Origin: Bradyrhizobium ontarionense
Lineage (GTDB): Bacteria; Pseudomonadota; Alphaproteobacteria; Rhizobiales; Xanthobacteraceae
NCBI RefSeq assembly: GCF_021088345.1
Contig: NZ_CP088156.1
Coordinates: forward strand, 868,001-932,000
Length of the DNA stretch: 64,000 nucleotides
Direction: 5' to 3'
A program made the position numbers and the translations under genes. The notes under the pieces were generated by a model. That model worked only from the letters and a program-made list of their open reading frames with translations, had not been told where the DNA came from and ran no database searches. Below, piece by piece: positions 36,298 through 56,068 of the stretch. How positions within the stretch are numbered: position 1 is the stretch's first letter; each line of letters opens with the position of its first letter.

Positions 36298-36459
36298 TTG
36301 CATCCCCTCGCCAAGCTCATCGTCGCCGTCCGCGCCTTCGCGATCATCGGGATCGCCGGCGCACTGCTGACCGCATGGGTTATCGGCCCGCGCGTCAATC
36401 ACACCAGGCCATTGAAGGCGCCCGCCGCGGTCGAGCAGGCCGGGAGCGTCATGCGATGA
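36298..36459 (+). CDS. Small membrane protein at the head of the lysis cassette
   Basis: 53 residues, TTG start with AGGAG seven bases upstream. LAKLIVAVRAFAIIGIAGALLTAWVIG gives one long membrane helix. Its TGA overlaps the endolysin ATG (ATGA). Size and position fit a holin-like or accessory lysis protein. Confidence 0.6.
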   Translation: MHPLAKLIVAVRAFAIIGIAGALLTAWVIGPRVNHTRPLKAPAAVEQAGSVMR

Positions 36460-38051: not shown

Positions 38052-38054
38052 GCT

Positions 38055-38435: not shown

Positions 38436-38731
38436 TGGGGCGGGACATCATTCGGGAAGACGCGCGGCTGATCATCCTGCGCGAGCTGCACACCCAGACG
38501 AACTATGCGCTCAACGACAACCTGCTGCAGCAGACGCTGGAGCTGTTCGGCATCGCGAGGTCGCGTGATTGGGTGCGCGAGGAGCTGAACTATCTCAGCA
38601 ATGTCGGCGCGATCTCCAAGACGGCGATAGGCAGCGTCGTCGTTGCGACGCTGGAGCCGAAGGGCGTCGAGCACGTCGAGCGCCGGCTCGTGATCGAGGG
38701 CGTGAAGCGTCCGAGCCCGCCGGAGCGATGA
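38435..38731 (+). CDS. Mu gp26-like winged-helix protein
   Basis: 98 residues, TGATG overlap with the previous gene. DARLIILRELHTQTNYALNDNLLQQTLELFG and the EELNYLSNVGAI wing match the small ArsR-like protein preceding gp27 in Mu-like prophages. Confidence 0.75.
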   Translation: MGRDIIREDARLIILRELHTQTNYALNDNLLQQTLELFGIARSRDWVREELNYLSNVGAISKTAIGSVVVATLEPKGVEHVERRLVIEGVKRPSPPER

Positions 38732-38737
38732 TGCACC

Positions 38738-39355
38738 ATGGCGCATCATCCCAGGGCGCGGCGCGGACGACTGTCGGAAATCGACAAGCTTCCGGACTGG
38801 GCCGACGAAGCGAAGATATGGGCGTTCGGACAGCTCAAGGAGCGCAAGCTATCGCAGCTCGAAATCCTCGACGGCTTCAATGCGCGTTTGAAGGCCGCTT
38901 CATTGGCCGAGGACGCGGCAGCCGAGCCGCCGGAGATCTCGCGCTCGGCGTTCAACCGCACCGCGCTGAAGATCGCGCTGCTCGGACGCCGGCTCGAGGA
39001 GACGCGCGAGATCGCAGCTGTCATCGCGCCGAAGCTGAATGAGGCCGGAGACAACTCGCTGACCCTGATGGTCGCCGAGACGCTCAAGACGCTGATCGCC
39101 GAGATGCTCGGCAACGCCGGCGAGCTAGCCGCCGACGGCGACACCGCCGAGATGCTGATGCTGACCTCGCGCGCGTTGAAGCACGCCGAGGAGGCCAAGC
39201 GGATCTCGGCGGATGGCCGCCGCAAGATCGAGGCCGAGATGCAGAACAAGGCTACCAAGGCCGTCGACGCCGTCGCGAAGGCCTCCGGGCTCTCCGCCGA
39301 AACCGTCGATGCGATCAAGGCGCGAATTCTGGGAATCGAGAGCCGGGGAGCCTAA
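38738..39355 (+). CDS. Small terminase subunit (DUF3486, Mu gp27)
   Basis: 205 residues. RGRLSEIDKLPDWADEAKIWA and the SRSAFNRTALKI segment are the gp27/DUF3486 signature. The protein recognises the pac end for headful packaging. Its stop codon overlaps the stop of an opposite-strand gene at 39352, and the large subunit lies downstream of that insert. Confidence 0.87.
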   Translation: MAHHPRARRGRLSEIDKLPDWADEAKIWAFGQLKERKLSQLEILDGFNARLKAASLAEDAAAEPPEISRSAFNRTALKIALLGRRLEETREIAAVIAPKLNEAGDNSLTLMVAETLKTLIAEMLGNAGELAADGDTAEMLMLTSRALKHAEEAKRISADGRRKIEAEMQNKATKAVDAVAKASGLSAETVDAIKARILGIESRGA

Positions 39356-40050
39356 TCGTGCAGCCTGCTTACAATTTGTTCGATTTGATTGCGGCAGGCC
39401 GGAAGCAATCCGCTTGCGATCCGAATTTCGCGCGAGTTCAATTCCCACCGCATATTTGTAAGGTCTTGGTGTCTCTTAGCCATGTGAGCCAGAGTGCGCT
39501 CCTTCTTATCCTGGCTAGGCGGCGGACCGTAATGGAGATTCTGAGCCTCGACTACGCTGTCGTGGTAGGCACGCAAACATTCTGCAACGGGGTGAAGCAA
39601 GGTTGGGGGTACCTTGGTGCCAACCTTGCGTTGGATCGCAGAGGCGATGTCGGTCTCGTTGGAGGAAAGACCGAGTTCGTGCAACTTACCGGCCAGCACA
39701 TCGTGATGCTGCGGCTGGACGCCTGCCGCAAAAGCCTCCGCGATCAGCTCCATGCATACCCGGAGCCCAAGAAGCTCTTCCTCAAGGCGCTCTTGTTCTC
39801 GGCTAAGCACCTGCAACAGACTACCATCGCGTTGCGCCCTGATCTGCTCCTGGACCGAGCTATAGGCGATGTACGCGGCCCACAAAGTGACGCTGGGCGC
39901 GAGCACATTGACGATGGCCCCACCCCAATCCTTCATCTCCTGGGTGGTGTGCGAGGCCACATACGGAGCGCCGAGGGTGACCAGCACCGTCAAGCTGACA
40001 GCGAGACCGATCAGCCCAACTGCCCCGAGTCCCTGATCCCATTTCCCCAT
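39352..40050 (-). CDS. Opposite-strand two-helix membrane protein inserted between terminase genes
   Basis: 232 residues from ATG 40050. Two membrane helices (GLIGLAVSLTVLVTLG and IVNVLAPSVTLWAAYIAY) precede a long cytoplasmic helical region (REQERLEEELLGLRVCMELI). Its GC content is clearly lower than the flanking terminase genes. It lies on the minus strand while all neighbours are plus, and its stop overlaps gp27's stop, the layout of a moron expressed from its own promoter in lysogens. Function unknown; superinfection exclusion or antiphage defence fits the topology. Confidence 0.75.
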   Translation of the reverse strand: MGKWDQGLGAVGLIGLAVSLTVLVTLGAPYVASHTTQEMKDWGGAIVNVLAPSVTLWAAYIAYSSVQEQIRAQRDGSLLQVLSREQERLEEELLGLRVCMELIAEAFAAGVQPQHHDVLAGKLHELGLSSNETDIASAIQRKVGTKVPPTLLHPVAECLRAYHDSVVEAQNLHYGPPPSQDKKERTLAHMAKRHQDLTNMRWELNSREIRIASGLLPACRNQIEQIVSRLHD

Positions 40051-40132
40051 ACGAGAAGCATGGCCGAACCCGTCCAAGCTGTCGAGTCCGGCCTTAGGAA
40101 TCCGCCCTATATCTCAATGTCAGGAGACGGTC

Positions 40133-40516
40133 ATGAATGACGCAACGCCGACGGAAATACTGGAGGTCGATATCAGCTGGGAATGGGCGATCGTCGAAAT
40201 TTTCGGCCACCGCCGTCACGTGGGCAAGGCCCGCGAAGAGGAGCGCTTTGGGTCGAAGATGCTTCGGATTGACGTGCCGAAGCTGGGGCCAGGCACGGAT
40301 GAAATCAGCTGGTCGAGTCACTTCTACGGCGGCAGCTCCATCTTTTCTTACACGATCACCGATCAGGAGACGGTGATGAACTATGCGCAGCGAACCTACA
40401 CGCCCGCGCTGCCCTACCGCGATCACGGCACCTCGGACCCGGTCGACCATGGCGCAGACCGCGAGGGTGCCGAGGTCCTCGCCACGGATGACGACGAGGA
40501 TGAAGAGTACCGGTGA
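40133..40516 (+). CDS. Hypothetical protein preceding the large terminase
   Basis: 127 residues with AGGAG upstream. N-terminal mixed fold (ISWEWAIVEIFGHRRHVG), acidic C-terminus (ATDDDEDEEYR). Its stop overlaps the terminase GTG. May have come in with the adjacent membrane-protein insert. No family recognised. Confidence 0.6.
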   Translation: MNDATPTEILEVDISWEWAIVEIFGHRRHVGKAREEERFGSKMLRIDVPKLGPGTDEISWSSHFYGGSSIFSYTITDQETVMNYAQRTYTPALPYRDHGTSDPVDHGADREGAEVLATDDDEDEEYR

Positions 40517-42165
40517 CCGATCCCACTCGCCTGATTTCTGATGCCGAATGGGCCGCGACGCGGCGCGCTGGCCTGTTGGCCAGCGCGCAGCTCGCGCGCG
40601 ACGCCGGCGGCATCGAAGGCGTTCTGCTCGATTACCAGAAGGAGCTGCTCGCCTCGACGTCGCATCATGCAGTGACTCTCTGCGAGAAGTCCCGTCGTAT
40701 CGGTGCGACCTGGGGCATCGCATCGGACGCCGCGCTGACCGCCGCCGCAGTGAAATCCGCGGGCGGCATGGACGTGTTCTATATCGGCTACAACAAGGAG
40801 ATGGCGCGGGAATTCATCGACGTCTGCGCCATGTGGGCCAAGAGCTTCAGCGAGGCCGCCTCGGAAGTGCAGGAGTTCGTCTTTGACGATGGCGAGCCCG
40901 ACAGTAGCATTCAGGCGTTCCGCATCCGCTTCGCGTCCGGGTTCGAAATCATTGCGCTGCCATCGCGACCCCGGTCGCTCCGCGGCATGCAGGGCTTCGT
41001 CATCCTGGACGAAGCCGCCTTCCACGACGATCTCGACGCCATGATGAAGGCCGCGCTCGCGCTGCTGATGTGGGGCGGCAGGGTCCTCGTGATCTCAACC
41101 CATCTCGGCGTTGCCAACGCCTTCAATCGGCTGATCGAGGATGCCCGTGCCGGGCGGAAGCCGTACCACGTCGAGCGCTATACGTTCGACGACGCGCTGC
41201 GGGCCGGGTTGTATCAGCGCATCTGCCTGGTGACCGGCAAAGAGTGGTCGCCGGAGGCCGAAGCGACATGGCGCGCCGAGATCATCGCCTCATATGGCGA
41301 TGACGCTGACGAAGAGCTGTTCTGCATCCCGAGCCAGGGCGGCGGCGTCTACCTGGCGCGCGCGCTGATCGAAGCCCGCATGATCGTCGACGGCCCGGTG
41401 CTGCGGCTCTCGCGGCCGGCGGAGTTCACGTTCCAGACGAAGGAGTACCGCGAGGCCGACATCCTGGCTTGGTGCAAGAAGCAGCTTGATCCCGTCTTGA
41501 AGAAGCTCGACGGCGACCGGCAGCACGGCTTCGGCCAGGACTTCGCGCGCAACTGCGACCTGTCGGTGCTGGCGCCGATCGAGATCGGCAAGACCTTGAA
41601 GCGTACGGTGCCGTTCTGGATCGAGATGTCCAACATCCCGTTCGAACAGCAGCGTCAGGTGCTGTTCTACATGTGCGATCGGCTGCCACGCTTCATCGGC
41701 GGCAAGATGGACGCCTCCGGCAACGGTGCCTATCTCGCGGAAGTCGCCGCGCAGCGCTATGGGCCGATGCGGATCGAACAGGTCAAGATGAGCGCGGAGT
41801 GGTATCTCGAAAACTTCCCGCCGCTGAAATCGGCGTTCGAGGACGGGACCATCCTGCTGCCGATGGATGCCGACGGCGCCGATGATCTCGCGCTCGTGCA
41901 GACCATTCGCGGCATTCCGCGCGTGCCCGACATCCGCACCAAGGGTGCGGACGGAAAGAAGCGTCACGGCGACGTCGCGATCGCGCTCGTGCTCGCCTAT
42001 GCGCAAACGCGCGCGCAGCTGGTCGAGTTCGGCTACCGCTCGCCGAACAGCCGCGACGCGAACAATCCCGCTAAAGGCGGGCCGTCGCATGATGACGACG
42101 AAGATCGCGACCAGAGCCGGTGGTGGCGTCCGCCGCTCGGCGCCCGCATTCGTGGAGGACTTTGA
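40513..42165 (+). CDS. Large terminase subunit (Mu gp28)
   Basis: 550 residues, GTG start overlapping the previous stop. ATPase motifs: EKSRRIGATWG (58-68) as the deviant Walker A and FVILDEAAF (162-170) as Walker B with catalytic Glu. A nuclease domain follows, with acid GQDFARNCDLSVL. It pumps DNA into proheads. Confidence 0.92.
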   Translation: MTDPTRLISDAEWAATRRAGLLASAQLARDAGGIEGVLLDYQKELLASTSHHAVTLCEKSRRIGATWGIASDAALTAAAVKSAGGMDVFYIGYNKEMAREFIDVCAMWAKSFSEAASEVQEFVFDDGEPDSSIQAFRIRFASGFEIIALPSRPRSLRGMQGFVILDEAAFHDDLDAMMKAALALLMWGGRVLVISTHLGVANAFNRLIEDARAGRKPYHVERYTFDDALRAGLYQRICLVTGKEWSPEAEATWRAEIIASYGDDADEELFCIPSQGGGVYLARALIEARMIVDGPVLRLSRPAEFTFQTKEYREADILAWCKKQLDPVLKKLDGDRQHGFGQDFARNCDLSVLAPIEIGKTLKRTVPFWIEMSNIPFEQQRQVLFYMCDRLPRFIGGKMDASGNGAYLAEVAAQRYGPMRIEQVKMSAEWYLENFPPLKSAFEDGTILLPMDADGADDLALVQTIRGIPRVPDIRTKGADGKKRHGDVAIALVLAYAQTRAQLVEFGYRSPNSRDANNPAKGGPSHDDDEDRDQSRWWRPPLGARIRGGL

Positions 42166-43772
42166 TGGCGACCGCCGTTTCACCGATCGTCGATCAGTTC
42201 GGCCGGCCGATCCAACGCGAGCTGTTGACGCGCGAGGTCGCAGGCCCGCGCATCGGCGGCGTGCGCTCGCCCGTCTCGGGCTATCCGGCCGATGGTCTCG
42301 ATCCGATCCGGCTCGCGAACATCCTGCGCGCCGCCGATGCCGGAGATCCGCTGCGCTTTTTCGAGCTGGCCGAGCTGATCGAAGAGCGCGACCTGCACTA
42401 CGCAGGCGTGCTCGGCACACGCAAGCGCTCGGTATCGCAGCTCGATATCCAGGTCGATGCCGCAGAGGATACGCCCGAGGCCAAGGCGCATGCGGATTGG
42501 ATCGAGGCGGGCCTGAAGCGCGACACGCTGCAGGCCGAGCTGTTCGACATGCTCGATGCGATCGGCAAGGGCATCAGCTTCACCGAGATCGTGTGGGACA
42601 CGTCTGAGGGCGACTGGAACGTCGGTCAATTGGCCTGGCGAGATCCGCGCTGGTTTCGCTTCGATCGTTACGACGGCGCGACGCCGTTGCTGATCGGCGC
42701 CTACGACGCCGAGGGCGTCGGATCCGTCAACCTTCCTTCGACGCCGTCAGGCGAGTCGCCGCTGGCACCGTTCAAGTTCGTTGTCGCCGCCATCAAGGCC
42801 AAGTCGGGCCTGCCGGTGCGCGCCGGCGTCTCGCGCCTGGTCGCATGGGCATGGATGTTCAAGGCGTTCACCCAGCGCGACTGGGCGATCTTCAGCCAGA
42901 CGTTCGGGCAGCCGGTCCGTGTCGGCAAATACCCAGCAGGATCGACGGAGAGCGACAAGAGCACGCTGTTCAGCGCCGTGGCCAACATCGCCGGCGACTG
43001 CGCCGCGATCATCCCCGAGACGATGCTGATCGAGTTCATCGAATCGAAGAACGTCGGCCAGGGCGCCGACCTCTACGAGAAGCGATGCGACTGGCTCGAT
43101 CGACAGATCTCGAAGGCGGTGCTCGGACAGACCGCGACGACGGACGCCATCGCCGGCGGTCACGCCGTCGGCCAGGAGCACCGCCAGGTGCAGGAGGATA
43201 TCGAGCGCTCCGATGCGAAGGCGTTGTCGGCGGTGCTCAACCGCGACCTCGTGCGGCCGTGGATCGACCTGCAGTTCGGCAAGCAACTGCTGTATCCGCG
43301 GCTGCGCGTCGGCCGTCCCGAAGACAAGAACGTCCAGCTCACGGTCGAGAGCGCGGTGAAGCTCATTCCGATGGGCCTCAAGGTCGAGACCAGCTTCTTC
43401 AACGATCTACTCGGCATTCCCGTTCCGAAAACCGGCGCTGACGTGCTGATAGCACCGGCAACGCCGGCGCCGGCCGGATTCGGCAACACCGGGTCCGATT
43501 TTCCCGCATTGAACACGTCGCAGCGCATGCGCGAGGTCGATGATCCCATCGTGGCGCTCGCCGACCAGGCCGAGAAGCTCTGTGGGCCGGGGACGGACGC
43601 GTTGATCAACGAAGTCCGCGCCGTCGTCGAGCATGCGACGTCGCTGCAGCAGGTGCGTGACGAACTGTTGAAGCTCAAGCCAGGTATCGCCGAGCGAAAT
43701 CTCGCCGGACTGATGCGCATGGCGCGCGTCATGGCTAATCTCACCGGGCGGGCGAACATCCCCGATGCTTAA
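42165..43772 (+). CDS. Portal protein (DUF935, Mu gp29)
   Basis: 535 residues from ATG 42165, with GGAGG upstream and the start overlapping the terminase stop. The DUF935 pattern is clear: LANILRAADAGDPLRFFELAELIEERDLHY then GTRKRSVSQLDIQV. It forms the DNA portal ring. The gp30 gene follows with overlap. Confidence 0.92.
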   Translation: MATAVSPIVDQFGRPIQRELLTREVAGPRIGGVRSPVSGYPADGLDPIRLANILRAADAGDPLRFFELAELIEERDLHYAGVLGTRKRSVSQLDIQVDAAEDTPEAKAHADWIEAGLKRDTLQAELFDMLDAIGKGISFTEIVWDTSEGDWNVGQLAWRDPRWFRFDRYDGATPLLIGAYDAEGVGSVNLPSTPSGESPLAPFKFVVAAIKAKSGLPVRAGVSRLVAWAWMFKAFTQRDWAIFSQTFGQPVRVGKYPAGSTESDKSTLFSAVANIAGDCAAIIPETMLIEFIESKNVGQGADLYEKRCDWLDRQISKAVLGQTATTDAIAGGHAVGQEHRQVQEDIERSDAKALSAVLNRDLVRPWIDLQFGKQLLYPRLRVGRPEDKNVQLTVESAVKLIPMGLKVETSFFNDLLGIPVPKTGADVLIAPATPAPAGFGNTGSDFPALNTSQRMREVDDPIVALADQAEKLCGPGTDALINEVRAVVEHATSLQQVRDELLKLKPGIAERNLAGLMRMARVMANLTGRANIPDA

Positions 43773-44535
43773 AGCGCACGGCACGCCGGTTTTTCGAGGC
43801 TGCGGCTGCATCGGTGTAGCTCCGCAGGCCGAAATCCTGCCGTTTTCGGTCGCGCCGATCGAGGCGATCAACTTCCTCAAGAAGAAGACGGCCGTTCCAA
43901 CGGAAACGTGGACCGATCTGTGGCAGCAGGAGCACTCGCGCAGCTTCACTGTCGCCGGCGCGATGACCGATGACCTGGTCGCCGACTTCCACAAGGCCGT
44001 CGTCAAGGCGATCGAGCAAGGCGAGACGCTGGAGACGTTCCGAAAGGACTTCGACAGCATCGTCGACACCCATGGATGGAGCTACAACGGCACGCGCGGC
44101 TGGCGTAGCCGTGTCATCTTCGACACCAACATGAGCACGGCTTATGCCGCGGGCCGCTGGGACCAGATCCAGCGCGTCAAGCGCACGCGGCCGTATCTGA
44201 TGTATCGTCATCTCGAAGGCCAGCGCTTTCCGCGGCCGATTCATCAGTCTTGGGACGGCACGATTCTGCCCGTCGAGCATCCGTGGTGGAAGACGCACTA
44301 TCCGCCGAACGGTTGGGGCTGCCATTGCTGGGCCGAGAGCCTCTCCGACGACGATCTCAGGCGCTATGGCTATCGCGTATCCAAGGATGCGCCGCCATCG
44401 CCGCTGATCAAGCGCACGGTCGAGCTGTCGGACGGCACGCTGAAGACGGTCGAGGTACCGCAAGGGATCGACCCAGGCTTCGCCTATCGGCCCGGCGAGA
44501 TGCCGGCCTCGATCGACGACGCGCTGAAGGAATGA
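43765..44535 (+). CDS. Mu F-like minor head protein (gp30)
   Basis: 256 residues, shorter than Mu F (about 420). APIEAINFLKKKTAVPTETWTDLWQQEHSRSFTVAG and the FDTNMSTAYAAGRWDQ motif are the F / SPP1 gp7 family marks. A CHCW motif near residue 188 lies in a WGCHCWAESLSDDD segment typical of F. It is the last head gene of this half; protease I, next in Mu, is 22 kb away on the other strand. Confidence 0.88.
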   Translation: MLKAHGTPVFRGCGCIGVAPQAEILPFSVAPIEAINFLKKKTAVPTETWTDLWQQEHSRSFTVAGAMTDDLVADFHKAVVKAIEQGETLETFRKDFDSIVDTHGWSYNGTRGWRSRVIFDTNMSTAYAAGRWDQIQRVKRTRPYLMYRHLEGQRFPRPIHQSWDGTILPVEHPWWKTHYPPNGWGCHCWAESLSDDDLRRYGYRVSKDAPPSPLIKRTVELSDGTLKTVEVPQGIDPGFAYRPGEMPASIDDALKE

Positions 44536-44699
44536 GGAGTTCACCTCCGCCGCGATAGTGGCGGGGGCCGCAGCGCGCAAACGCTGCAACCGCGGGCCTA
44601 TCCTGGCAGACTGACCCGCACGACGAGTGATCTCGACCCGCCGACCCGCCGCTGCTGCGCAGCGTGGCGACCTTAGGCGGGCGGGGAGTGATTGAGGAG

Positions 44700-45518
44700 A
44701 TGGGTTCGAAGGTTGTCTACAGGCAGGTTCAACCGGTCTCACCGGCAGCAGGCTATATCGGCGGCAAGAAGCAGCTCGCGAGGACAATCGTCGCGAGCAT
44801 CGAGCGGATTCCGCACGAGACCTATGCAGAGGCGTTCGTCGGCATGGGCGGCGTCTTTCTGCGGCGGCGGCTCGCGGCGAAGGGCGAGATCATCAACGAC
44901 CGGTCGGGCGATGTCGCGACGTTCTTTCGTATCCTGCAACGGCACTACGTGCCTTTCATGGACATGCTGAAATGGCAGATCACCGGACGGCAGGAGTTCG
45001 AGAGGCTGAAGGCTGCGCATCCGTCGACGCTGACCGATCTGGAGCGCGCGGCGCGCTTCCTGTACCTGCAGCGGACGGCATTCGGCGGCAAGGTCGCGGG
45101 CCGCAACTTCGGTGTGAATCCGCTCGGCGCTCGCTTCAACGTCGCGAAGCTTGCGCCCATGCTGGACGAACTGCACGAGCGCCTGGCGGGCGTCACGATC
45201 GAGTGCCTGCCATGGGCCGAATTCATCGCCCGCTACGACCGGCCGGCCACACTGTTCTATCTCGACCCGCCATACTTCGGCGGCGAGAAGGACTACGGCG
45301 CCGGGATGTTCGAGCGCTCGGAATACGGGCTCATGGCGGACGTTTTAAGCCGCCTGAAAGGCCGTTTTATCTTGTCGCTGAACGACACGCCGGAGGTGCG
45401 GAAAACCTTCCACGGCTTCGCGCTGCGGCCCGTGCGGCTGACCTATTCGGTGGCGGCCAGCACCAACGCCAAGGCGGCCCGGGAGCTGATCATAACCGGC
45501 CCGAAAAGGCGTCGCTGA
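44700..45518 (+). CDS. D12-class DNA adenine methyltransferase (Dam-like)
   Basis: 272 residues. N6-adenine methylase of the Dam/D12 group: AAGYIGGKKQLA is the SAM-binding motif and DPPY (residues 189-192) the catalytic motif, with FVGMGGVFLRR between. It is the last gene before the right end. It probably protects phage DNA from restriction or times packaging or transposition; the recognition sequence cannot be read from the protein. GTGs at 44664 and 44688 are alternative starts. The gap 44536-44699 shows only hairpins. Confidence 0.88.
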   Translation: MGSKVVYRQVQPVSPAAGYIGGKKQLARTIVASIERIPHETYAEAFVGMGGVFLRRRLAAKGEIINDRSGDVATFFRILQRHYVPFMDMLKWQITGRQEFERLKAAHPSTLTDLERAARFLYLQRTAFGGKVAGRNFGVNPLGARFNVAKLAPMLDELHERLAGVTIECLPWAEFIARYDRPATLFYLDPPYFGGEKDYGAGMFERSEYGLMADVLSRLKGRFILSLNDTPEVRKTFHGFALRPVRLTYSVAASTNAKAARELIITGPKRRR

Positions 45519-46151: not shown

Positions 46152-47972
46152 CTACCCGCCCACGATCCCGGAGCCGCGAAACGCCGCGCCGGATGTCGGC
46201 GTCTTCGGCGCGGTTGGAGGTGGCGGAGCAAGAACCGTCGCAAACGAGCCGGCCGACAAGGCATAGTCAGGGGGGAATGCCGACCCGAGCGCGCGGATCG
46301 TTGTGCGCCGCACGTCATGCGCGGCCCGCAGGTGGGCAATGTGATCGCACAGGCCATCCACCGCCAGCCTGAAGCTGTCGGCCGAGCCGACGAGGCTCGC
46401 ATTGAGGCCAGGCAGCAATCGGAGCGCGGGCGGCAGGTCCTTCGGCCGCGGCATCGCGGCGCCGTCGAACAGCACGGGGAGGATGGGGAGACCAAGCTCG
46501 ATCGCCGCTGCAATCTCCTGCACGACATGGTCTTCGCGGCTCTCGCGTTGATACCAGCGCCGCCGGCGCGCGTGCAGCAACCGCGTCCATGCAGGTCCGA
46601 TCAGCACCAGCTGGATGGCGCAGTCGCCGAGAACGTCCTTGATGTGATCCCAGAAATCCGTGCCGGGCGGAATCGAATGGGCGTCGAGAAAGACCGCATC
46701 GGTGCCGAAGCGCATCTGCAGGGCGTCCAGCAGACGGCCGGCGAAATGCGGACTTTCGGCACGGCGATAGGACAGAAAAATTCTGGCGCCCCGTGGCTGC
46801 GGCGCATAGCCGGTCGCCGCGAGCGTGGTTTTGGGAACGAGATCGTCGAGCAGCCGCGCGACGCTGTCGTAGCGCTGCGATGGATCGAGGCTCAGCCCCT
46901 GGCCGATGACGCGATAGAGCCGGTCGCTGAAGCGGAACGCAGGGTCGATCGCCGCAGCGAGCGGCTGCAAATTGTCCGAGACCAGGCGCTGCGTGGCCTC
47001 GGGCGGCGCCTCGCCCGACAGCAGCCAATAAAAGCTGGCGCACAGCGCATACACGTCGGACCGAACATCGGGCAGCGCATCGGTGCGGTACTGCTCGGGT
47101 GGCGAGAAGCCCGGCGTTACCATCAGGCCTCCGTCATGCCCGGCGACGTCTCGCGCGGTGGCCGCGCCGAAGTCGATGAGCACGGGGAGACGGCGCGGAC
47201 CGACGACGAAGATGTTGCCCGGTTTCAAGTCGCGGTGCACGAAGCCCGAGGCATGGACATGGTCGAGCGCATCGCATGTCGCGCGCATCAGATCGAGCAC
47301 CTCGCCGTGGCCGAGGCTGCGGCGCGCAGCGTCTCCCCAGAGCCGCATGTCGGAGCCGTCGAGCAGCTCGTAGACGATGTAGGCGGTATTGTTGGTGCGG
47401 AAGAAATCGTGGATCCGAACGATGCCCTCGTGGCGCAGCGCAAAGGTGATGCGCGCCTCCTCCGAAAAATAGAACAGGCTCCACTGCATGATTCCGTCGT
47501 CGCCATCCGGGCAGCGCACGTCGTTCGCATGCGTGCGGTAGCTGCGTCCGCTCAGGAACAGTTCCTTCAGGGCGACGCGGCGGCGAATGACCGTATCCTC
47601 CGCCAGATAGGTAATCCCGAATCCGCCTTCTCCGATCACCTTGTTGATGCGGTAGCGGTGGACGATACAGCCGGGCGGCAGCGACTTGCGGACGAGCGGT
47701 CGATGATCGTCCGTGCTTCGGGTCTCCGATCGGCCGGCGACGATCGTGGCCAGGTCGGAAAATGCGGCCGGGCGCGGTGCATGGCGTGGTGCTCCCGCCG
47801 CGTCTGCTGCTGGTCCAGTCCGAGGACGGATGATCGTCGGCGCAGGCGCGGCGAGCACGGTGCGGTCCAGGATGACCGTATCCTCGACCCGGCGCCCGGC
47901 CAGGGTCCCCTTGAACACCGTGGCCAGACGGGTCTCGGGCCGAGCGAGAAAGGTGTAGCGGACGTCGGTCAC
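46152..47972 (-). CDS. Ser/Thr protein kinase with C-terminal TIR domain
   Basis: 606 residues, soluble. An unassigned N-terminal region (about 1-100) leads to a complete Hanks-type kinase: Gly loop GEGGFGITY (114-122), Lys in VALKE, HRDLKPGN (246-253) and IDFG (266-269). A TIR domain spans about residues 396-540 (ARIFLSYRRAESPHF, then FLDAHSIPPGTDFWDHI, then IQLVLIGPAW). No membrane helix is seen, unlike PASTA kinases. TIR domains of bacteria often act as NADases or signal generators in immunity, so the kinase may sense and the TIR respond; that link is inference. It is divergent from the LysM gene at 48166. Confidence 0.88.
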   Translation of the reverse strand: MTDVRYTFLARPETRLATVFKGTLAGRRVEDTVILDRTVLAAPAPTIIRPRTGPAADAAGAPRHAPRPAAFSDLATIVAGRSETRSTDDHRPLVRKSLPPGCIVHRYRINKVIGEGGFGITYLAEDTVIRRRVALKELFLSGRSYRTHANDVRCPDGDDGIMQWSLFYFSEEARITFALRHEGIVRIHDFFRTNNTAYIVYELLDGSDMRLWGDAARRSLGHGEVLDLMRATCDALDHVHASGFVHRDLKPGNIFVVGPRRLPVLIDFGAATARDVAGHDGGLMVTPGFSPPEQYRTDALPDVRSDVYALCASFYWLLSGEAPPEATQRLVSDNLQPLAAAIDPAFRFSDRLYRVIGQGLSLDPSQRYDSVARLLDDLVPKTTLAATGYAPQPRGARIFLSYRRAESPHFAGRLLDALQMRFGTDAVFLDAHSIPPGTDFWDHIKDVLGDCAIQLVLIGPAWTRLLHARRRRWYQRESREDHVVQEIAAAIELGLPILPVLFDGAAMPRPKDLPPALRLLPGLNASLVGSADSFRLAVDGLCDHIAHLRAAHDVRRTTIRALGSAFPPDYALSAGSFATVLAPPPPTAPKTPTSGAAFRGSGIVGG

Positions 47973-48165
47973 CGCAAACCTCCTGCGCAGCGGAACAGAC
48001 GTAAGGACTTGTGATCGAATCCAGGACGTCTGGTCCGACCGCTAGGAGTCCTCGCTTGCGCCGCGCGATGGCGTTTCGACGCGCTTGATGGTATCAGCGA
48101 TGCCAACCATCCTGCTGACGGAGCCGTCGTCTCCGTGTTCGCCACGACCAGGGACGAACCTTCGC

Positions 48166-49368
48166 ATGACCATCGTGAGCGGCAAAGGATTGTTTTGGGC
48201 GGGCGGCGCCTTCGCGGCGCTGGCGGCGGCTGTTCTCCTGATCGCCTTTGTGCCCGGCATCGATCTCGGCGGCTCGATCTTCAAGCGCGGGCAGCCCGCT
48301 GCCAGCCAGGAAGAGGCCGCGCGACCGGGCGCTGGGTCAGAGCAGGGGGCGGCAGACAAGGTTGGTTCGACGCAAGCCGCGGCCGCGCTCGCGACCGCAC
48401 AACAACAGGCCAGCAGTCTGGCCGCGCTGTTGGCGCCGGTCACGCCGCTGGCCGCGGACAGCGACAGCCCGTCGTTCGACGTGGTCAGCGTGGAGCCCTC
48501 GGGCGAGACCGTCGTCGCCGGCCGGGCTGCGCCCGGTGCGACCGTCGAGCTGCTGCGCAATGGCGAGCCGCATGATCGCGTGGTTGCGGATCAATCGGGA
48601 CAGTTCTCGATGGTGCCGCGCCGGTTGCCTGCCGGCGCCTCCGACCTGACGCTGCGAGCCCGGCAGCCGGACGGCCGCGAGGTGTCATCCAGGCAGAGCG
48701 TCGCCGTCGTGGTGGAGGCCGGCAAGCGGCCGCCGACGGTGGCGCTGCTGACGCCGGACCAGCCGACCCGCGTGCTGTCGAAGCCCGGTGCATCGTCGCC
48801 TCAGGCCGTTGCCGTGGACGCGGTCGACATCGAGCCGAACGGACTCCTGCGCGTCAGCGGCCGCGCGCGCCCCGGCGCGACCGTGCGGCTCTATCTCAAC
48901 GACCGCCTCGTCGGCTCCGCCGTCGCAGGGCCCGACGGACGTCTCACCGCGACCATCAAGGATGCCAAATGGTCCAGCAAGGACCGATTGCGGCTCGATG
49001 AGGTGGACGCTGCATCCGGAACCGTTCTGGCCCGCGCGGAGGTGCCCTTGAATGGTCCCGAGGATGCGACCACGGCATCCGTTGCGACACGCGTGGCGGC
49101 GGCTGGCCAGGGGACCGTCGCTGCCGTCCCGCGCACGCAGCTGGCGGCCGCGCCGGGCGCCGACCTGAAGGATATGGGCACGTCATCTGCCCGCGCCGGC
49201 GCCAAGACCTTCACCGTCTCGCGCGGCGACAGCCTGTGGCACATCAGCCGCCGTCTCCTCGGCGTCGGCACGCGCTATGCCGTCATCTACCAGGCCAACC
49301 GCGAGCAGATCCGCAGCCCGGACCTGATCTATCCGGGCCAGGTCTTCGTGCTTCCGGTCAAGCGGTAG
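48166..49368 (+). CDS. Envelope LysM protein with Ig-like repeats
   Basis: 400 residues from MTIVSGKGLFW; this start has GGGAC upstream and removes a long unlikely leader. One N-terminal membrane helix (FAALAAAVLLIAFVPG), then two similar beta domains (VSVEPSGETVVAGRAAPGA and VDIEPNGLLRVSGRARPGA), then a C-terminal LysM (FTVSRGDSLWHISRRLLG, RSPDLIYPGQVFVLP) that binds peptidoglycan. Probably anchored in the inner membrane with the LysM in the periplasm. Common in rhizobia. Confidence 0.85.
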   Translation: MTIVSGKGLFWAGGAFAALAAAVLLIAFVPGIDLGGSIFKRGQPAASQEEAARPGAGSEQGAADKVGSTQAAAALATAQQQASSLAALLAPVTPLAADSDSPSFDVVSVEPSGETVVAGRAAPGATVELLRNGEPHDRVVADQSGQFSMVPRRLPAGASDLTLRARQPDGREVSSRQSVAVVVEAGKRPPTVALLTPDQPTRVLSKPGASSPQAVAVDAVDIEPNGLLRVSGRARPGATVRLYLNDRLVGSAVAGPDGRLTATIKDAKWSSKDRLRLDEVDAASGTVLARAEVPLNGPEDATTASVATRVAAAGQGTVAAVPRTQLAAAPGADLKDMGTSSARAGAKTFTVSRGDSLWHISRRLLGVGTRYAVIYQANREQIRSPDLIYPGQVFVLPVKR

Positions 49369-49843
49369 GCGGCTTTAGCGGGTTTGATCGGGGGAGCTCC
49401 GTCGACTGTCCGGGCTTCAACACGAGGCGGGCTCTTTTCGGACGAGGGCGCGTGCTTATCGCATCGATCTTGATTGTACGGCGGTCGATGTCCGCATTGC
49501 ACCTGATAGCTATCGAGCTTTGCGTTGTAGAAGATTTTGCGATGGGCCGACAATACACCACTCATCAGAGTCCGGGGAGGGCGAGCTCTGGACCTGACGA
49601 GGCAGTTCGATCCAGTCGTGAATGTTGACCCTTTGCCGACTCAGCACCCCCCAAGCATTTGTGGCTTCCAAATGATATTGTCATTGAAGAATTTCTTTCA
49701 TAGGTTGCGTCGGTGATTGATGTTTATCGCACTCGCGTTGCCCGACAAAATGCTTGAATTTCTTTGCTATTCTCAAGCGAGGCCAAAAGTACTGACGTTG
49801 GGCGCGAAATGTACTATTTTACCCTTATTGGTCGGAGGCACTT
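49369..49843. other. AT-rich spacer before the STAND gene
   Basis: No convincing gene. GC content falls sharply after about 49600 and AT-rich stretches near 49660-49830 probably hold the promoter of the next gene. No insertion-sequence ends, tRNA or repeat was seen. Confidence 0.5.
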
Positions 49844-52800
49844 TTGGCCAATACTGACAAATTGCAGAACGAACTTGATCGTTACGTGCGCAGCTATGTC
49901 ACTCGCGAGATCGTTCAATCTTCGGCTGACGCGAGCGCCGATCCACAGCTTGCTACGATTATTGGCAAAATCGCAGAGCGTCTGTCTGATGACAGAGAGG
50001 GTGTGATCCTCGACGTTGGCTGCGGCCATGGAACGCTGCTCAGTAGAATGGCTGAATTACCGCAGTTTCGGGACCAGATGACTTGGACCTATGCCGCGAT
50101 CGACGAGGAGGATAAACTCGATGAGATAGCCCGTCTTACACGGCATCTCGGAATAAGTCGTCGGGTCGAGCCGATCTCACTCGCGAGGTTCTACGAGGCT
50201 TGGCCCAGACACGGCTCGCCTCAGCTGGTGGTCTGCAGAAACGTTCTGCATGAACTCACGATGCCTGAAACTGCCCGGCTCCTAAGACATGTTGCCAGCA
50301 ATCTCGATCCTAAAGATGAATTCATTATCCAGGATTTGCTCCGCTTTCCCGAGAGTGAACGGCACCATGCATGCTGGCTTACGGAAAAGTTATCCAGCTG
50401 CGTCAAAGGCCACGGCTTCGAGACGGTGAGTGCGGTGCAGCAGGGCTCTCGCAGCGGAAACGCCTGGGTGAACATAGTTGCAAAGAACCGTCTGCAAGAC
50501 GTGCCTACGCGCGTTGAGTCGGAGCAGATGGTCGTTTCAGCACGACAGCAGCAATGGGAATTGTGGTCTGCCCTTGATCAGGCCGATCAGCGGAGCCTTC
50601 CTGACCGCCCGGAATTAATAACAGCGCTCGATCTAGATCTTCAGCTAGTTTCTCTCACCCGGCAATTGCGGAACGCGGGGGCTCTTAGCCTCAGCCTCGA
50701 CAAAGATGTTGCTCGCCGCGTTCGGGCGGCTGAATTCACCAGTCGCGTGGATGCGTTCGTACGCGCGAATAATTTGGTGAAGCGGACACCCGAGGTGAGC
50801 GTGCACTTCCGCGAGCGCGGCGAACAGCTTAACACTATGGAAGCTTTCTTGCGGGGGCCAGAACGCTTAGCGCTTGTATTTGGCGGCCGCGGCACCGGGA
50901 AGACGACCTTCGTCAACCATCTGCTGAAAGAGCGGCTTTACGAGAAGACGTTTGTCATGATCGACGGACGAGCTTCGCGCGGATTTTGGCCCATCGTAGA
51001 ACAGTTGTTCGCTCAAGTTGGGCTGAACCTAGCCGCTGAAGCACTTAGTGTCCTCGGAGATATAAATTTTGATAGGATCAAAGCGGCTATCGGGCAGTTC
51101 TTCAATCAGTTCGCCGCGCGAATGGTGCTTGTAGTTGACAATTTTGATGAGTTTGTCGACTCGAACGGTGTCATTTTTGACCGAGATATTGAGGATCTGC
51201 TGGAATATATCGTATCGAAAGAGACAGTGAAGGTGATTCTAACCTCAAGAGGCGAATATTTGCCTCCTGCCCTTCAATACGCAGGAATTTCCGGTCTACT
51301 GCCTAAGGTAAAGCTCGGGCGATACGGGACCGATGAGACGGTCGTTAATGTGCTGGACGACCATTTCGATCGAGGAAAGGCGAATTTATCGGAATACCCA
51401 GAAAAACTCATTCAAGCGATTGATAGGCACCCTCTGATCGCGACTTTGGCTGGGCATGTCCTCAATCGAAACGGACAAGGGGTGCTATTAAACGACCACT
51501 TCATTTTTGAGGTCCGACAAAAGCTTCAGGCAGAACTAACGAGCCGTTTGATTGACGATCAATCCCTCCCCGCTGTCGAGATCGCATCAAAGCTGCGGGT
51601 GCCAGTCCCGGTTCCCATGCTTGAACGACTCGCCCCAAACGAAGCAATTTATCGAGCCAGGGCTGCTGAAGTCTTGTACACTATTCCAGATAGACGCTGG
51701 CAACAGCTGATCTCATCACTTGGTTTATTCAGGAGGCAGACCGTCGACGATATGACGCTCGCCTCGCTGAATGAGCAAGATGCAGCAGACAAATCCGAAA
51801 ACTCAAACATAGCTGATGCATACGACAGAATTTACCGCAGCGACGACGATCCGAAATGGATCAGAGAGAGCTATTTTCATAGGATGCTATCCGGATCGAT
51901 AAATTCGGAAGATTTGGTCGGTTTTGTCGGGCAATACTATTTTCCAGAACTAAAATCGTCGGCTGCATATTGCTTCAGGAAGCGCGATTATTTCACGGCT
52001 CTGGAGCTCTTTGAGGCTGCAATGTCATTATCTGATCTGGACGAAACGTCCCAGATGTGGCGCGCGTCCTGCATGATCCGGGCCGGTGATCGCGAAGGCG
52101 AAAAGGAATATAGGCGCCTAGCGCAGACCTACCCCAACAATAACGGCATTCGCACCTCACACGTGGACGCACTGCTGAGCGTTTGTGAGGATCAGGCCGC
52201 GATCGACACTCTGACTAGCTACGATCTATCTCCGGACAAAAGCGAGTGGGTGGCGCAGCAGTGGGGCAGAGCACATCTGGGCCTCCATCACTACGAGGAG
52301 GCTATCGCAATCTTCAGGAAATTGCTTTCCGGGAGTACTTCGAATCCGTATTGGTTTACTTATCTCGCCCGCGCGCTTCAGCAATTTGGCGATCTCGAGG
52401 GTGCAATCGAGATTCTCCGCAAAGCGCGCAAGCGTTATCCGGAAAACGTCTCTATCCTGACCTCCCTCGGGGCTGATTTGGAGCGGATGAAATTGGACGA
52501 GGAGGCAATCGAAATCCTACTTCCTCTCTTTGAGGCTACTCCCCAAAATACCCGAGCCGCGCTGGCACTAATCCGAGTGCGTATTCGGGAAGGAAATATC
52601 TCTGGCGCTGAGGCGGTGCTGAAGCGAGCCAGGACCGATGTGTCTGTAGCGATGAAGCCATTCTTGATTTCTGCCGAGGCGGAGGTTCTAATGGCCCAAG
52701 GCCGACCCAGATCAGCGATTGAACTCTTGCGGCCGGCGGCGGTACGCGACGAGCATCTCATTGGCCTGCTTATGGAAGCCCTTATCCAGGAAATATTCAA

Positions 52801-53032
52801 GTCACCCGACACAGAAGGGCGCCAACGAGCCGTCCGGGACGCGCTGGCAATTTCAATACCCGAGCGCTGGCGAAAGAATGTCCCGATACAAGTGACGAGA
52901 GCGCGCCTTGCGATAGCTGCTCGCAATGAAGCTATGTTCGATCTGACAATTCAGAACCTCAATTCAACACTTATAGCTAGACCTGAGATCGAAAGACTGC
53001 GGGCTCAGTGGAGAGAGTCGAACTCGAACTAG
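49844..53032 (+). CDS. Methyltransferase-STAND NTPase-TPR fusion, NLR-like defence candidate
   Basis: 1062 residues, TTG start with GGAGG five bases upstream; a stop at 49793 limits longer forms. Residues about 1-215 are a class I SAM methyltransferase fold: VILDVGCGHG (54-63) is the SAM-binding motif and NVLHEL (133-138) the later acidic/His motif. Residues about 320-600 are a STAND-type ATPase: GGRGTGKTT (347-355), MVLVVDNFDEF (427-437) as Walker B, and VILTSRG (464-470) as the sensor-like segment. A helical region follows, then TPR-like repeats from about 700 to 1030. This is the effector-NTPase-sensor order of STAND immune proteins, but with a methyltransferase as the N-terminal module. 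GC content is well below that of the neighbours, so it is likely acquired. Other readings: a regulatory ATPase or an RNA/protein methylation machine. Confidence 0.82.
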   Translation: MANTDKLQNELDRYVRSYVTREIVQSSADASADPQLATIIGKIAERLSDDREGVILDVGCGHGTLLSRMAELPQFRDQMTWTYAAIDEEDKLDEIARLTRHLGISRRVEPISLARFYEAWPRHGSPQLVVCRNVLHELTMPETARLLRHVASNLDPKDEFIIQDLLRFPESERHHACWLTEKLSSCVKGHGFETVSAVQQGSRSGNAWVNIVAKNRLQDVPTRVESEQMVVSARQQQWELWSALDQADQRSLPDRPELITALDLDLQLVSLTRQLRNAGALSLSLDKDVARRVRAAEFTSRVDAFVRANNLVKRTPEVSVHFRERGEQLNTMEAFLRGPERLALVFGGRGTGKTTFVNHLLKERLYEKTFVMIDGRASRGFWPIVEQLFAQVGLNLAAEALSVLGDINFDRIKAAIGQFFNQFAARMVLVVDNFDEFVDSNGVIFDRDIEDLLEYIVSKETVKVILTSRGEYLPPALQYAGISGLLPKVKLGRYGTDETVVNVLDDHFDRGKANLSEYPEKLIQAIDRHPLIATLAGHVLNRNGQGVLLNDHFIFEVRQKLQAELTSRLIDDQSLPAVEIASKLRVPVPVPMLERLAPNEAIYRARAAEVLYTIPDRRWQQLISSLGLFRRQTVDDMTLASLNEQDAADKSENSNIADAYDRIYRSDDDPKWIRESYFHRMLSGSINSEDLVGFVGQYYFPELKSSAAYCFRKRDYFTALELFEAAMSLSDLDETSQMWRASCMIRAGDREGEKEYRRLAQTYPNNNGIRTSHVDALLSVCEDQAAIDTLTSYDLSPDKSEWVAQQWGRAHLGLHHYEEAIAIFRKLLSGSTSNPYWFTYLARALQQFGDLEGAIEILRKARKRYPENVSILTSLGADLERMKLDEEAIEILLPLFEATPQNTRAALALIRVRIREGNISGAEAVLKRARTDVSVAMKPFLISAEAEVLMAQGRPRSAIELLRPAAVRDEHLIGLLMEALIQEIFKSPDTEGRQRAVRDALAISIPERWRKNVPIQVTRARLAIAARNEAMFDLTIQNLNSTLIARPEIERLRAQWRESNSN

Positions 53033-53383
53033 AATACTAGTCGGAAGTGCGAGCCATCGCCCAAAATGTTTGGAAGCCGAATAGCTACGAATTTGGTCCG
53101 CGCATCTACGATGTCTGTTGTGGCACGTAGCTGCTGATTTTGAATCCTTGAGGCCGGTCGAAGCGAGGATGTCGCATTGGCGCCTTAGGAACACGAGCCG
53201 AATGATTGTCGCTAGTGTAGCGTGGAAATTGACGTTGCGTCGCGATCTCGCGGCAAGGGGACTTGAACGTCAAATTGATTGCGCGGGGCAAGAGATCGCC
53301 GCGCTGCTCCCGTCCGGCAGCAAGGTGCACGACGCGCTGCTCGTTGTCGGACTGTCGAGCCCCGCAGGCTCCCTCCTGGAGGA
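53033..53383. other. Spacer at the island's right edge
   Basis: No supported gene. The first 150 bases keep the low GC of the island, then GC rises. A stretch near 53260-53280 resembles the T-arm of a tRNA on the minus strand, but no full tRNA can be drawn. Confidence 0.45.
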
Positions 53384-54829
53384 TTACTGGAGTAGCTCAT
53401 CCGCCAGCTCGCCCAGCCGCTCGACGCTGCGCTCGATCCGGGCGCTCCAGTCGTGGCTGCAGCTCAGGCGCAGGCAGTTGCGATAGCCGCCGCTGGCCGT
53501 GAACAGGCTGCCGGGGACGAAGCAGATGCGCTCGCGGATGGCGCGGGCATAGAGCGCGTCGGCGTCGAAGCCGTGCGGCAGCTCCAGCCACAGCACGAAG
53601 CCGCCCCTCGGGTCGGTCATGCGGGTATCCCGCGGGAAGCTGCGGTCGACGGTGCGGCGCATGCGGTCGATGTTGTCGGCGAACAGTTTTCGGATGCGCC
53701 GGAGGTGGGCGTCGTAGCCGCCTGATGTGAGGAAATCGGCCATCGCCTTCTGCGGCAGCGCCGCGCCGCTCAGCGACAGCGCGAATTTTGCCGCCAGGAT
53801 CTGGTCGTGGCGGCGGTTGGCGGCGAGCCAGCCGATCCGGTAGCCTGGCGCGATGGTCTTGGAGAACGAGCTGCACAGGATGATGTCGGCCTTCGGACTG
53901 ATCGCGGCGAACGGGCGCGGCCGGTCCGCGCCAAAGCTGATGTCGCCATAGATGTCGTCCTCGATCAGCGGCACGCCGTGGCGCGTCAGCACCTTCGTGA
54001 TCGCAGCCTTGCGCGCATCGTCGGTGCGGTAGCCCAGCGGATTGCTGAAGCTCGATGCGAGCAGGCAGGCGGCGACGCGGCGCGCGCCGAGCGCCTTGTC
54101 GAGCGCTGCGACGTCGATGCCGCTGGTCGGGTCGGTCGGCAGCTCCAGCGCGCGCAGGCCGTGGGCCTCGAGCACCTGCAGCAGGCCGAAATAGGTCGGG
54201 GATTCGATCGCGACGGTGTCGCCGGGCTTGGTGGTGACGCTGAGGGCGATGTTCAGCGCTTCCGTGCAGCCATTGCTGATCAGGACTCCATCGGGCGGCA
54301 CCGCGTGGCCGAGCCGCAAAGCGCGTTCGGAGATCTGGCCGCGCAGCTCGGCATCGCCATGCGGATCGGCATAGACGTTGTAGTTCCGGCCATGGACGCG
54401 CGCGCAGCGGGCGAGATGGCGGTCCAGCCGCTCGGCCGCGAGCAGGCCGGCGCTCGGGACCGCACAGCCCAGCGGCGCGTAGGACGGATCGGTGGCGTAG
54501 GCGAGCACGCTGAACACGGGATTGCTGACGGAGACCTGCGTGGCGCGCTGCGGCGGCTGCGAGGCCGCCGGCGGCGGCCGCCGCGTGTGGGTCCGGCTGG
54601 TGACATAGAAGCCGGATTTCGGCCGCGCCGCGAGCACGCCGCGGTCCTCCAGCAGCCGGTAGGCCTGCAGGGCCGTGGTCAGGCTGACGCCGTGCTGCGC
54701 GGCAAAGGCACGCACCGAGGGCGCGCGCATCCCGACGCGCAGAACGCCGTCGTCAACCAGCGCCACGACCCGGCCTGCGAGGGCTTCGTAGAGCGGCAGA
54801 TCTGGTGTGCGCTGGTCCATACAGGCCAT
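53384..54829 (-). CDS. MocR/PdxR-family transcription regulator
   Basis: About 481 residues from MACMDQRTPDL (MDQRT at 54820 is equally possible). A GntR winged helix (LYEALAGRVVALVDDGVLRVGMRAPSVRAFAAQHGVS) is fused to a fold-type I aminotransferase domain with the PLP Lys in SSFSKTIAPGYRIGW. Such proteins sense PLP-linked amines and control a divergent target. Here the target is probably the aminotransferase at 54932. The sequence before residue 45 of the longer frame is unlikely to be translated. Confidence 0.9.
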   Translation of the reverse strand: MACMDQRTPDLPLYEALAGRVVALVDDGVLRVGMRAPSVRAFAAQHGVSLTTALQAYRLLEDRGVLAARPKSGFYVTSRTHTRRPPPAASQPPQRATQVSVSNPVFSVLAYATDPSYAPLGCAVPSAGLLAAERLDRHLARCARVHGRNYNVYADPHGDAELRGQISERALRLGHAVPPDGVLISNGCTEALNIALSVTTKPGDTVAIESPTYFGLLQVLEAHGLRALELPTDPTSGIDVAALDKALGARRVAACLLASSFSNPLGYRTDDARKAAITKVLTRHGVPLIEDDIYGDISFGADRPRPFAAISPKADIILCSSFSKTIAPGYRIGWLAANRRHDQILAAKFALSLSGAALPQKAMADFLTSGGYDAHLRRIRKLFADNIDRMRRTVDRSFPRDTRMTDPRGGFVLWLELPHGFDADALYARAIRERICFVPGSLFTASGGYRNCLRLSCSHDWSARIERSVERLGELADELLQ

Positions 54830-54931
54830 CCAACACGAAATCTGTTCTGGTGACAATTCATCTCGTCTGTATCTGTCATCCTCTGGCCTTGCGGCCGTAG
54901 CGTAGGGCGCCTCTGCTCCGGAGTTTCGCCA
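54830..54931. promoter_or_regulatory. Divergent promoter region between MocR and aminotransferase
   Basis: The gap holds ATCTGTTCTGG and a later CGTCTGTATCTGTC, a TCTGT word repeated three times. MocR regulators typically bind direct repeats in such gaps. No box is certain. Confidence 0.4.
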
Positions 54932-56068
54932 ATGCCTCACGTGCCCAGCCGTTTCCCGCACAACGACATCATGACCTTGACGTCATCAGCGGTCCGTTTC
55001 GACCTCGCCGAAAGCCTCGGTCCGGATCTCAGGCTGGGCCAGATATTTGCTGATGGCTTCGGGGCCGAGCTGGAGGATCTCGCACTCGCCTACGGCCCGA
55101 CCGACGGCAGTGCGGCGTTGCGCCAGCTGATCGCCGCGCGCCACGGCGTCGACGCGGACGACGTGATCACCACCGTCGGCGCCATGCAGGCGCTGTTCCT
55201 GATCGCCTTCATCCTCGGCGAGCCCGGCGCCGGTGTCGTGATCGGACGTCCGGTGTTTCCCAATGCGCGTAGCGTGCTCGATGCGGTGCGCATGGATGTC
55301 GTCGAGCTGCCGATGCGCTTCGACGACGGCTACCGGCTCGACGTCGATCGTCTCAGATCGTTGCTGACGCCGCGGACCCGCCTGGTCAGCCTCGCCTCGC
55401 CGCAAAACCCCTCCGGTGTTGCGCTGACCGGGCAGGAGGTGCGCGGCGTGCTCGCTTGCATGCAGGAGATCTGCCCGGACGCGTTCCTGCTGGTCGACGA
55501 GACCTATCGCGAGGCCGTGCATGGCGACGGCGACGCACGCCCGAGCCTCGTCGGTCTGGATCGCCGCATCGTCAGCTGCGCGTCGTTCTCCAAATGCCAT
55601 GGCGCGCCCGGCATCCGCACCGGATGGGTGATCACGCAGGATCGGGCGCTGCGCGCGCAGCTCGAGTTCGCCAAGTTCAACACGACCATCTCCAATTCCG
55701 TCGTCGACGAGGCGATCGCGCTGCGCATCATGCAGACGCTGGATCCCATGATGCGCGACCGGCGTCGCCATCTCGCTGCGGGGCTGGCGCGAACGGCGGC
55801 CTTCGTCGAGGCGCACGCCGACATGATCGAATGGGTCCGGCCGGATGCCGGCGCGCTGTGCTGCGTCCGGCTGAGGCGCGACGTGTTCGATGACGCAGCC
55901 GTCGTGCGCTTTCACGGTGAGCTTGCGGCGCGCGAGACGCGCGTCGGGCCGGGATCGTGGTTCGGCGACGAGCCGCGCGTCTTCCGGCTCGGCTTCGGCC
56001 TGCTCACGCTGCCGGATCTCGACGAGGCGCTCGGCCGTATCGCGCAGGCGCTGCGGCAGGCGGCGTGA
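54932..56068 (+). CDS. PLP-dependent aminotransferase class I/II
   Basis: 378 residues with GGAG upstream. Fold-type I: YGPTDGSAALRQLIAARHG, SPQNPSG, VDETYRE (catalytic Asp region) and SFSKCHGAPGIRTGW (PLP Lys). Substrate unknown. Divergent from the MocR gene, so probably its target. The C-terminal FRLGFG is normal for the family. Confidence 0.88.
   Translation: MPHVPSRFPHNDIMTLTSSAVRFDLAESLGPDLRLGQIFADGFGAELEDLALAYGPTDGSAALRQLIAARHGVDADDVITTVGAMQALFLIAFILGEPGAGVVIGRPVFPNARSVLDAVRMDVVELPMRFDDGYRLDVDRLRSLLTPRTRLVSLASPQNPSGVALTGQEVRGVLACMQEICPDAFLLVDETYREAVHGDGDARPSLVGLDRRIVSCASFSKCHGAPGIRTGWVITQDRALRAQLEFAKFNTTISNSVVDEAIALRIMQTLDPMMRDRRRHLAAGLARTAAFVEAHADMIEWVRPDAGALCCVRLRRDVFDDAAVVRFHGELAARETRVGPGSWFGDEPRVFRLGFGLLTLPDLDEALGRIAQALRQAA

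Follow-up and report, generated by a model that had tools for sequence, protein, structure and literature searches.

Does a single gene that joins a methyltransferase to the switch and repeats of an immune receptor encode a new kind of defence protein? The question is raised by a locus of Bradyrhizobium ontarionense in the 64,000-nucleotide stretch analysed here, which we call the window (contig NZ_CP088156.1, positions 868,001 to 932,000). The open reading frame (ORF) at 49844-53032 on the forward strand is a real gene, supported by a family alignment; it encodes a protein of 1062 aa, begins with a TTG start codon and follows a GGAGG (49834-49838, forward strand), read by eye as a likely ribosome-binding site 5 bases 5' of the TTG. 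Weighing the evidence below, we think it probable, on balance, that this is a stand-alone, horizontally acquired defence protein that resembles nucleotide-binding leucine-rich repeat receptors (NLRs) and has a methyltransferase as its effector.

Domain architecture and family

An earlier note on this DNA, made from the letters alone, had read one chain consisting of an S-adenosylmethionine (SAM) methyltransferase, a STAND (signal transduction ATPase with numerous domains) switch and tetratricopeptide repeats (TPRs), and Pfam, the family alignment and structural models all confirm that reading. In the Pfam scan of the protein, for which 25 of 45 matching families were listed, Methyltransf_23 matched residues 42-171 (1.8e-11), AAA_16, an AAA_16/NACHT-like NTPase model, matched residues 322-437 (3e-8), and several TPR models covered residues ~707-892 (best 2.9e-16); no helix-turn-helix (HTH), other output domain or nucleic-acid-binding domain was among the matches listed. 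The whole-chain AlphaFold model (predicted local distance difference test, pLDDT, 84.4) has three domains, and another model, limited to residues 1-640 (84.2), again has the first two. All on the forward strand, the parts are a class I SAM methyltransferase domain, the proposed effector, at residues 30-217 (49931-50494); a helical linker, drawn from models and conservation and poorly conserved at its end, at residues 218-311 (50495-50776); the STAND switch, made of a nucleotide-binding domain, a helical domain and a winged helix, at residues 312-638 (50777-51757); and a TPR or helical-repeat region, the proposed sensor, at residues 642-1062 (51767-53029).

A search of 5.8 billion proteins returned 41 matches, of which 40 form one family of 38-68% identity and one (P0042) was dropped as non-family. 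Our alignment A1 holds 35 rows, namely the window protein and 34 of the 40 family proteins, and omits six partial proteins (P0004, P0005, P0015, P0028, P0040 and P0041). The 34 relatives align over nearly their whole length, and all 35 rows have the three-domain order. The same order is found in three distant proteins, one from a Desulfobacteraceae metagenome-assembled genome (MAG), one from a Fermentimonas MAG and P0069, which are 26%, 27% and 32% identical, respectively, to residues 1-640. A second alignment, A3, compares the corresponding part of the window protein with 37 others (38 rows), and residue counts below refer to it. A profile search retrieved 66 proteins, which are the same 40 family members and 26 that were set aside, and it added no further member; those 26 match over 3-20% of the query and have TPR models, with AAA_16 in addition in P0047 and methyltransferase and glycosyltransferase models in P0067. 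A single-sequence scan of genome contigs found no relative, and an alignment-based scan found seven loci (L002 to L008 below), in Croceicoccus (L002), Sphingomonas, the Desulfobacteraceae MAG, Uliginosibacterium, the Fermentimonas MAG (L006), Trinickia soli (L007, truncated) and Brocadiaceae (L008). Samples of the window's class, family and order (385, 198 and 397 genomes) each contained one carrier, the window's own genome, and samples around Uliginosibacterium and Sphingomonas (399 and 397 genomes) likewise contained only the centre genome itself; these five samples (198-399 genomes) overlap in part. The fusion is real and old, and the family is rare and scattered.

Some relatives depart from the full-length plan. 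The Brocadiaceae protein (L008 298-2388) matches residues 36-241, the methyltransferase and the start of the linker, and continues into a different C-terminal part with no Pfam match; a protein search with it gave itself and P0069 only, and P0069 (31% identity over its length) was found by that query and not by the profile search. As the methyltransferase unit is joined there to another C-terminal part, it can evidently be paired with different modules, which is typical of effectors. The Trinickia soli copy (L007 9872-10873) is truncated and matches residues 11-176 only, and the Croceicoccus copy (L002 652-3828) is split into two ORFs of one reading frame, seemingly by an in-frame stop. P0041, an 838-aa relative on a 319-kb contig, begins in the linker; its methyltransferase part is either absent, carried by a separate gene or overlooked in gene prediction.

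The methyltransferase domain

Structure prediction, which the earlier note had proposed as a check, gave a methyltransferase fold, and the objection that the fold might prove absent did not come true. Structure searches recognise the class I methyltransferase fold, with best matches mostly to family-2 small-molecule enzymes. By sequence, residues 1-220 match best, among PDB entries, to three O-methyltransferases: MfnG (7.8e-5), Plim_1147 (8.8e-4) and MmcR (0.028). The domain has the GxGxG of a family-2 class I catalytic domain and a histidine at the catalytic position: H136, in the motif CRNVLHE (residues 131-137; 50234-50254, forward strand), aligns with the histidine of NIFHL, NVLHDW and HVLHDW in those three PDB alignments, at the position of the LHDW histidine of family-2 O-methyltransferases. 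That histidine is the catalytic base in those enzymes. The residues D57, G59, G61, R132, N133, H136, E137, Q163, D164, E172 and W178 are invariant in all 38 rows, as is V134 of the motif in the family, and every one of the 38, including the most distant at 26% identity, keeps the SAM loop, RNV.HE and the P-loop lysine. Such invariance is the pattern expected of an enzyme under selection, and the effector place apparently holds an active methyltransferase of small-molecule type, as judged from these residues.

One family-2 trait is missing. Enzymes of this group (SgvM, Fur6, MmcR, DnrK and MfnG) have a separate N-terminal dimerisation module, whereas in both models of the window protein the domain is preceded by no more than one helix and a low-confidence loop (residues 1-29), and it is fused instead to a STAND switch. 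METTL6 and a bacterial Hen1 domain, which we take to be RNA enzymes, were among the 50 fold-search rows listed. A search of BFVD, with 50 rows listed, gave mostly ATPases and methyltransferases and a few others (a polymerase, a ligase and one phage protein labelled NLR-like), none of which stood out. A CheR-type chemoreceptor methylase was considered on account of the CRNVL string, which CheR motifs resemble, and was set aside, short of formal exclusion, as no CheR model was among the Pfam matches listed and the fold rows were mostly family-2.

The switch and the repeat region

Structure searches find the core fold of STAND proteins, a nucleotide-binding domain followed by a helical domain and a winged helix. 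In the Walker A motif GGRGTGKTT (residues 347-355; 50882-50908, forward strand), G352 and K353 are present in 38 of 38 rows, R325, G347 and P530 are equally invariant, and the Walker B acid at position 432 is D or E in every row. The linker contributes five further invariant residues (R234, Q237, W241, Q267 and L271; 38/38). The Walker motifs had been called complete, which holds for the Walker A lysine and the Walker B acid but not for the residue after that acid, which is N in 26 rows, including that of the window, D in eight, H in three and S in one. The GxP motif keeps its proline (P530) throughout; its G position is R or K in 35 of the 38 rows and N, C and G once each, so that GLP occurs only in the Fermentimonas protein and the motif is elsewhere mostly RHP. 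ATP binding looks preserved on these residues, and hydrolysis may be slow.

C-terminal to the switch, the TPR models and the successive helices at residues 642-1061 of the whole-chain model are those of a repeat-type sensor, although sensing itself is putative. Mean pairwise identity falls to 0.29-0.31 at residues 901-1062, as against 0.43 for the methyltransferase and the NTPase.

Insertion site and base composition

The gene lies in an insert of 4027 bp (49374-53400) that is absent from a genome of the same genus, G643, which has 44 bp there. G643 matches the flanks at 48058-49373 and 53401-53465, which are 44 bp apart in that genome versus 4027 bp in the window. The insert is a solitary gene between convergent genes, a LysM/Ig-domain protein on the left (48085-49368, forward strand), common to both genomes, and a GntR-aminotransferase (MocR-type) regulator on the right (53384-54961, reverse strand). 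The empty site comes from this one genome, whose own MocR-type gene is broken, with only two short pieces left beside the site (L030 4434-4818).

The GC content of the gene is 0.532 and that of its third codon positions (GC3) 0.572, versus 0.64-0.71 and 0.80-0.89 for nine other genes of the window; the LysM and MocR flanks stand at 0.706 and 0.693 (GC3 0.829 and 0.865). The low GC and the TTG start noted earlier are correct, and the gene itself is low in GC, although the supposed low-GC island amounts to one gene. Relatives also fall below their surroundings at L004 (0.331 vs 0.500), L006 (0.352 vs 0.485), L008 (0.370 vs 0.448) and the L007 remnant (0.534 vs 0.617). Gain in the window and loss in G643 both fit the empty site, and gain is favoured by the low GC and the rarity of the gene, so that the proposal of an acquired gene is supported. 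In a search for repeats that might bound the insert, the direct repeats (14-24 nt, two copies each) and the four inverted pairs that turned up do not lie at both ends, and there is no tRNA in the window.

Genomic neighbours

Seven places have readable neighbours, namely the window and L003 to L008; L002 has none. At three of the seven, defence genes adjoin the gene. L005 has a complete Gabija system (GajA 4.9e-269, GajB 1.5e-240), together with a STAND-like TPR protein (from ORF reading), a DUF2971 protein and a TPR-CHAT protein. L007 has a complete Wadjet system (JetA, JetB, JetC and JetD at 1.1e-201, 7e-91, 0 and 5.7e-129) with the truncated copy directly downstream, and also a WYL-type regulator (from ORF reading). 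At L006, a type IIG restriction-like gene (1.5e-14) that runs off the contig stops 71 bp upstream. These neighbours suggest the defence-type gene that had been proposed, as a count of three in seven without a random-gene control. A metabolic or cell-wall operon, which would have spoken for another role, was not found in common among the readable relatives by ORF reading, and the LysM neighbour in the window also borders the empty site of G643.

The window was also described as placing the gene beside a TIR-kinase and a prophage. They are indeed close, yet their GC is normal and the insert includes neither. The TIR-kinase (46152-47972, reverse strand) has Pkinase at residues 107-368 and a C-terminal TIR_2 at residues 398-510; it matches PADLOC kinase models such as PD-T4-6 (5.7e-44) and, below the cut-off of that model, the TIR protein ThcB4, and blastn finds nothing like it next to LysM in the 12-kb G643 region. 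The idea that it forms one cassette with the gene studied here was rejected on its normal GC and its place outside the insert. Positions 27743-45518 of the window hold the left half of a Mu-like prophage, with MuA, MuB, an endolysin, terminase subunits, a portal, a MuF head protein and a D12 DNA methyltransferase; nine of the 10 proteins tested match a PHROG, none of them a tail gene, and the prophage may be truncated.

Comparison with known systems

In a Foldseek search with the whole model, PH0952 (PDB 6mfv) ranked first and Avs3 (8dgc) fifth (E 1.6e-7). PH0952, likewise a STAND protein with a TPR sensor, and MalT (8bob), whose output is an HTH, are among the closest systems, and neither is known to us to carry a methyltransferase. 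Avs3 and other antiviral STANDs share the order of N-terminal enzyme, central STAND and C-terminal repeats; the likeness is one of fold, and the Avs3 chain is longer (2028 residues vs 1062). The NB-ARC proteins Apaf-1 and NRC1 differ in effector arm and sensor, with 13-14% identity in the fold rows. We know of no methyltransferase among the other characterised antiviral-STAND effectors. The characterised effectors named in passages of PMC10907252 are nucleases.

A methyltransferase effector on a STAND protein was not described in the literature searched, which left subscription papers mostly outside its scope, and the idea of an undescribed effector class agrees with this. The word 'methyltransferase' refers solely to histone enzymes in PMC8195603 (12 of 14 places covered) and to BREX DNA methylases and references in PMC12839542 (12 of 15 places covered), and it is absent from the main text of PMC7159879 and PMC10907252. 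In PMC13092281 it stands in figure legends only, one of which lists MTase and TPR among the domains of validated systems; the legend alone does not say whether they share one chain.

A model and its alternatives

From the domains, the predicted folds, the invariant catalytic-type residues, the single-gene insertion, the rarity and the defence-gene neighbours at some relatives, we infer a trigger, multimerisation, activity, a substrate and an anti-phage outcome along the following lines. The protein likely works like an antiviral STAND, with the cycle taken from PMC6468293. At rest, the STAND core (residues 312-638) would carry ADP and, together with the TPR arm, keep the protein closed until the TPRs bind a trigger, which is most likely a protein of a phage or another invader. 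Exchange of ADP for ATP and multimerisation would then gather the N-terminal methyltransferase domains. Since the domain has no separate N-terminal module like that of its closest structural relatives, STAND-driven assembly may stand in for dimerisation and make the active site whole. Once activated, the enzyme, in which H136 is the likely base, would methylate a conserved target, probably a small molecule, at the expense of SAM, and infection would stop as a metabolite is spoiled, SAM is drained, or both. A defence role is the most likely one, and the neighbours at three of seven places suggest it. The specific chemistry, in which an invader sets off STAND assembly and so activates a methyltransferase of small-molecule type, which then alters a universal metabolite or uses up SAM, is a tentative proposal.

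Several observations weigh against this picture. In four of the seven places (the window, L003, L004 and L008) there is no recognised defence system, and PADLOC on 26 neighbour ORFs picked by eye there (10 at L003, five at L004, five at L008 and six in the window) found no complete system. The matches there were generic: an ABC-type ATPase hit mad3 (7.7e-31), a radical-SAM protein hit pVip (1.5e-13), the D12 methylase of the prophage hit MTase_II (4e-54), and a response regulator also scored. The 1062-aa protein itself matched eight PADLOC families (E 2e-6 to 0.04), none strongly; its matches to mad2 (1.9e-6) and mad8 (2.3e-6) of MADS, a multi-gene system, are weak and generic matches to a methyltransferase and an ATPase, and they mean little because mad8 is matched better (4.7e-12) by an unrelated ABC-type ATPase of L003. 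GC is about equal to the surroundings at L003 (0.631 vs 0.627) and L005 (0.518 vs 0.530) and above them at L002 (0.639 vs 0.575), and plasmids, phages and a two-pattern IMG/VR scan gave no match. The Arg or Lys in place of the GxP glycine and the Asn after the Walker B acid mean that the nucleotide cycle may differ from that of other STANDs. The linker end (residues 281-320, identity 0.26) is as variable as the TPR end, so a variable stretch is not by that token a sensor.

A defence protein might instead modify a macromolecule such as tRNA, rRNA, phage DNA or a phage or host protein. Class I methyltransferase folds act on all these types of substrate, and METTL6 and Hen1 among the fold rows point the same way, but the best sequence and fold matches are small-molecule family-2 enzymes and the Pfam matches listed hold no nucleic-acid-binding domain, which leaves this target conceivable but doubtful. 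It is unlikely that the protein serves signalling or regulation rather than immunity, as MalT or AfsR do, with TPRs that sense a metabolite or partner protein and gate methylation of a signalling or secondary metabolite; such a role fits poorly with the lack of an HTH or other output domain among the Pfam matches listed, the solitary position between convergent genes, the rare, scattered and often low-GC pattern, and the want of a biosynthetic partner common to L003, L004 and L005 by ORF reading. Still more improbable is a pseudo-enzyme in which the methyltransferase domain senses SAM or an analogue, controls the switch and leaves the output elsewhere. Some phages destroy SAM, and its loss could be a trigger, but a pure sensor would not need H136, E137, Q163, D164, E172 and W178, invariant beyond the SAM loop, and the chain shows no second effector domain. 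That the ORF is misread or a chance fusion with no function, to which low GC and a TTG start might point, can be dismissed, as the same protein occurs in Sphingomonas, Uliginosibacterium, the Desulfobacteraceae MAG, the Fermentimonas MAG and the database family of 40, and conservation over nearly the whole length in the 34 aligned members rules out chance.

Implications

Antiviral STAND proteins combine one common switch with swapped effectors, and SIR2 and TIR effectors consume NAD; the methyltransferase effector proposed here would be the methyl counterpart. Even if the protein does not serve defence, it would still be a rare gated methyltransferase in which assembly may replace a dimerisation domain. 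The proposal is directly testable, since it concerns a single gene of 3.2 kb whose invariant residues offer targets for mutation. If it is the acquired defence protein that we favour, metabolite methylation or SAM drain would be added to the known STAND outputs, and phage defence would be linked to SAM, a cofactor that some phages themselves attack.
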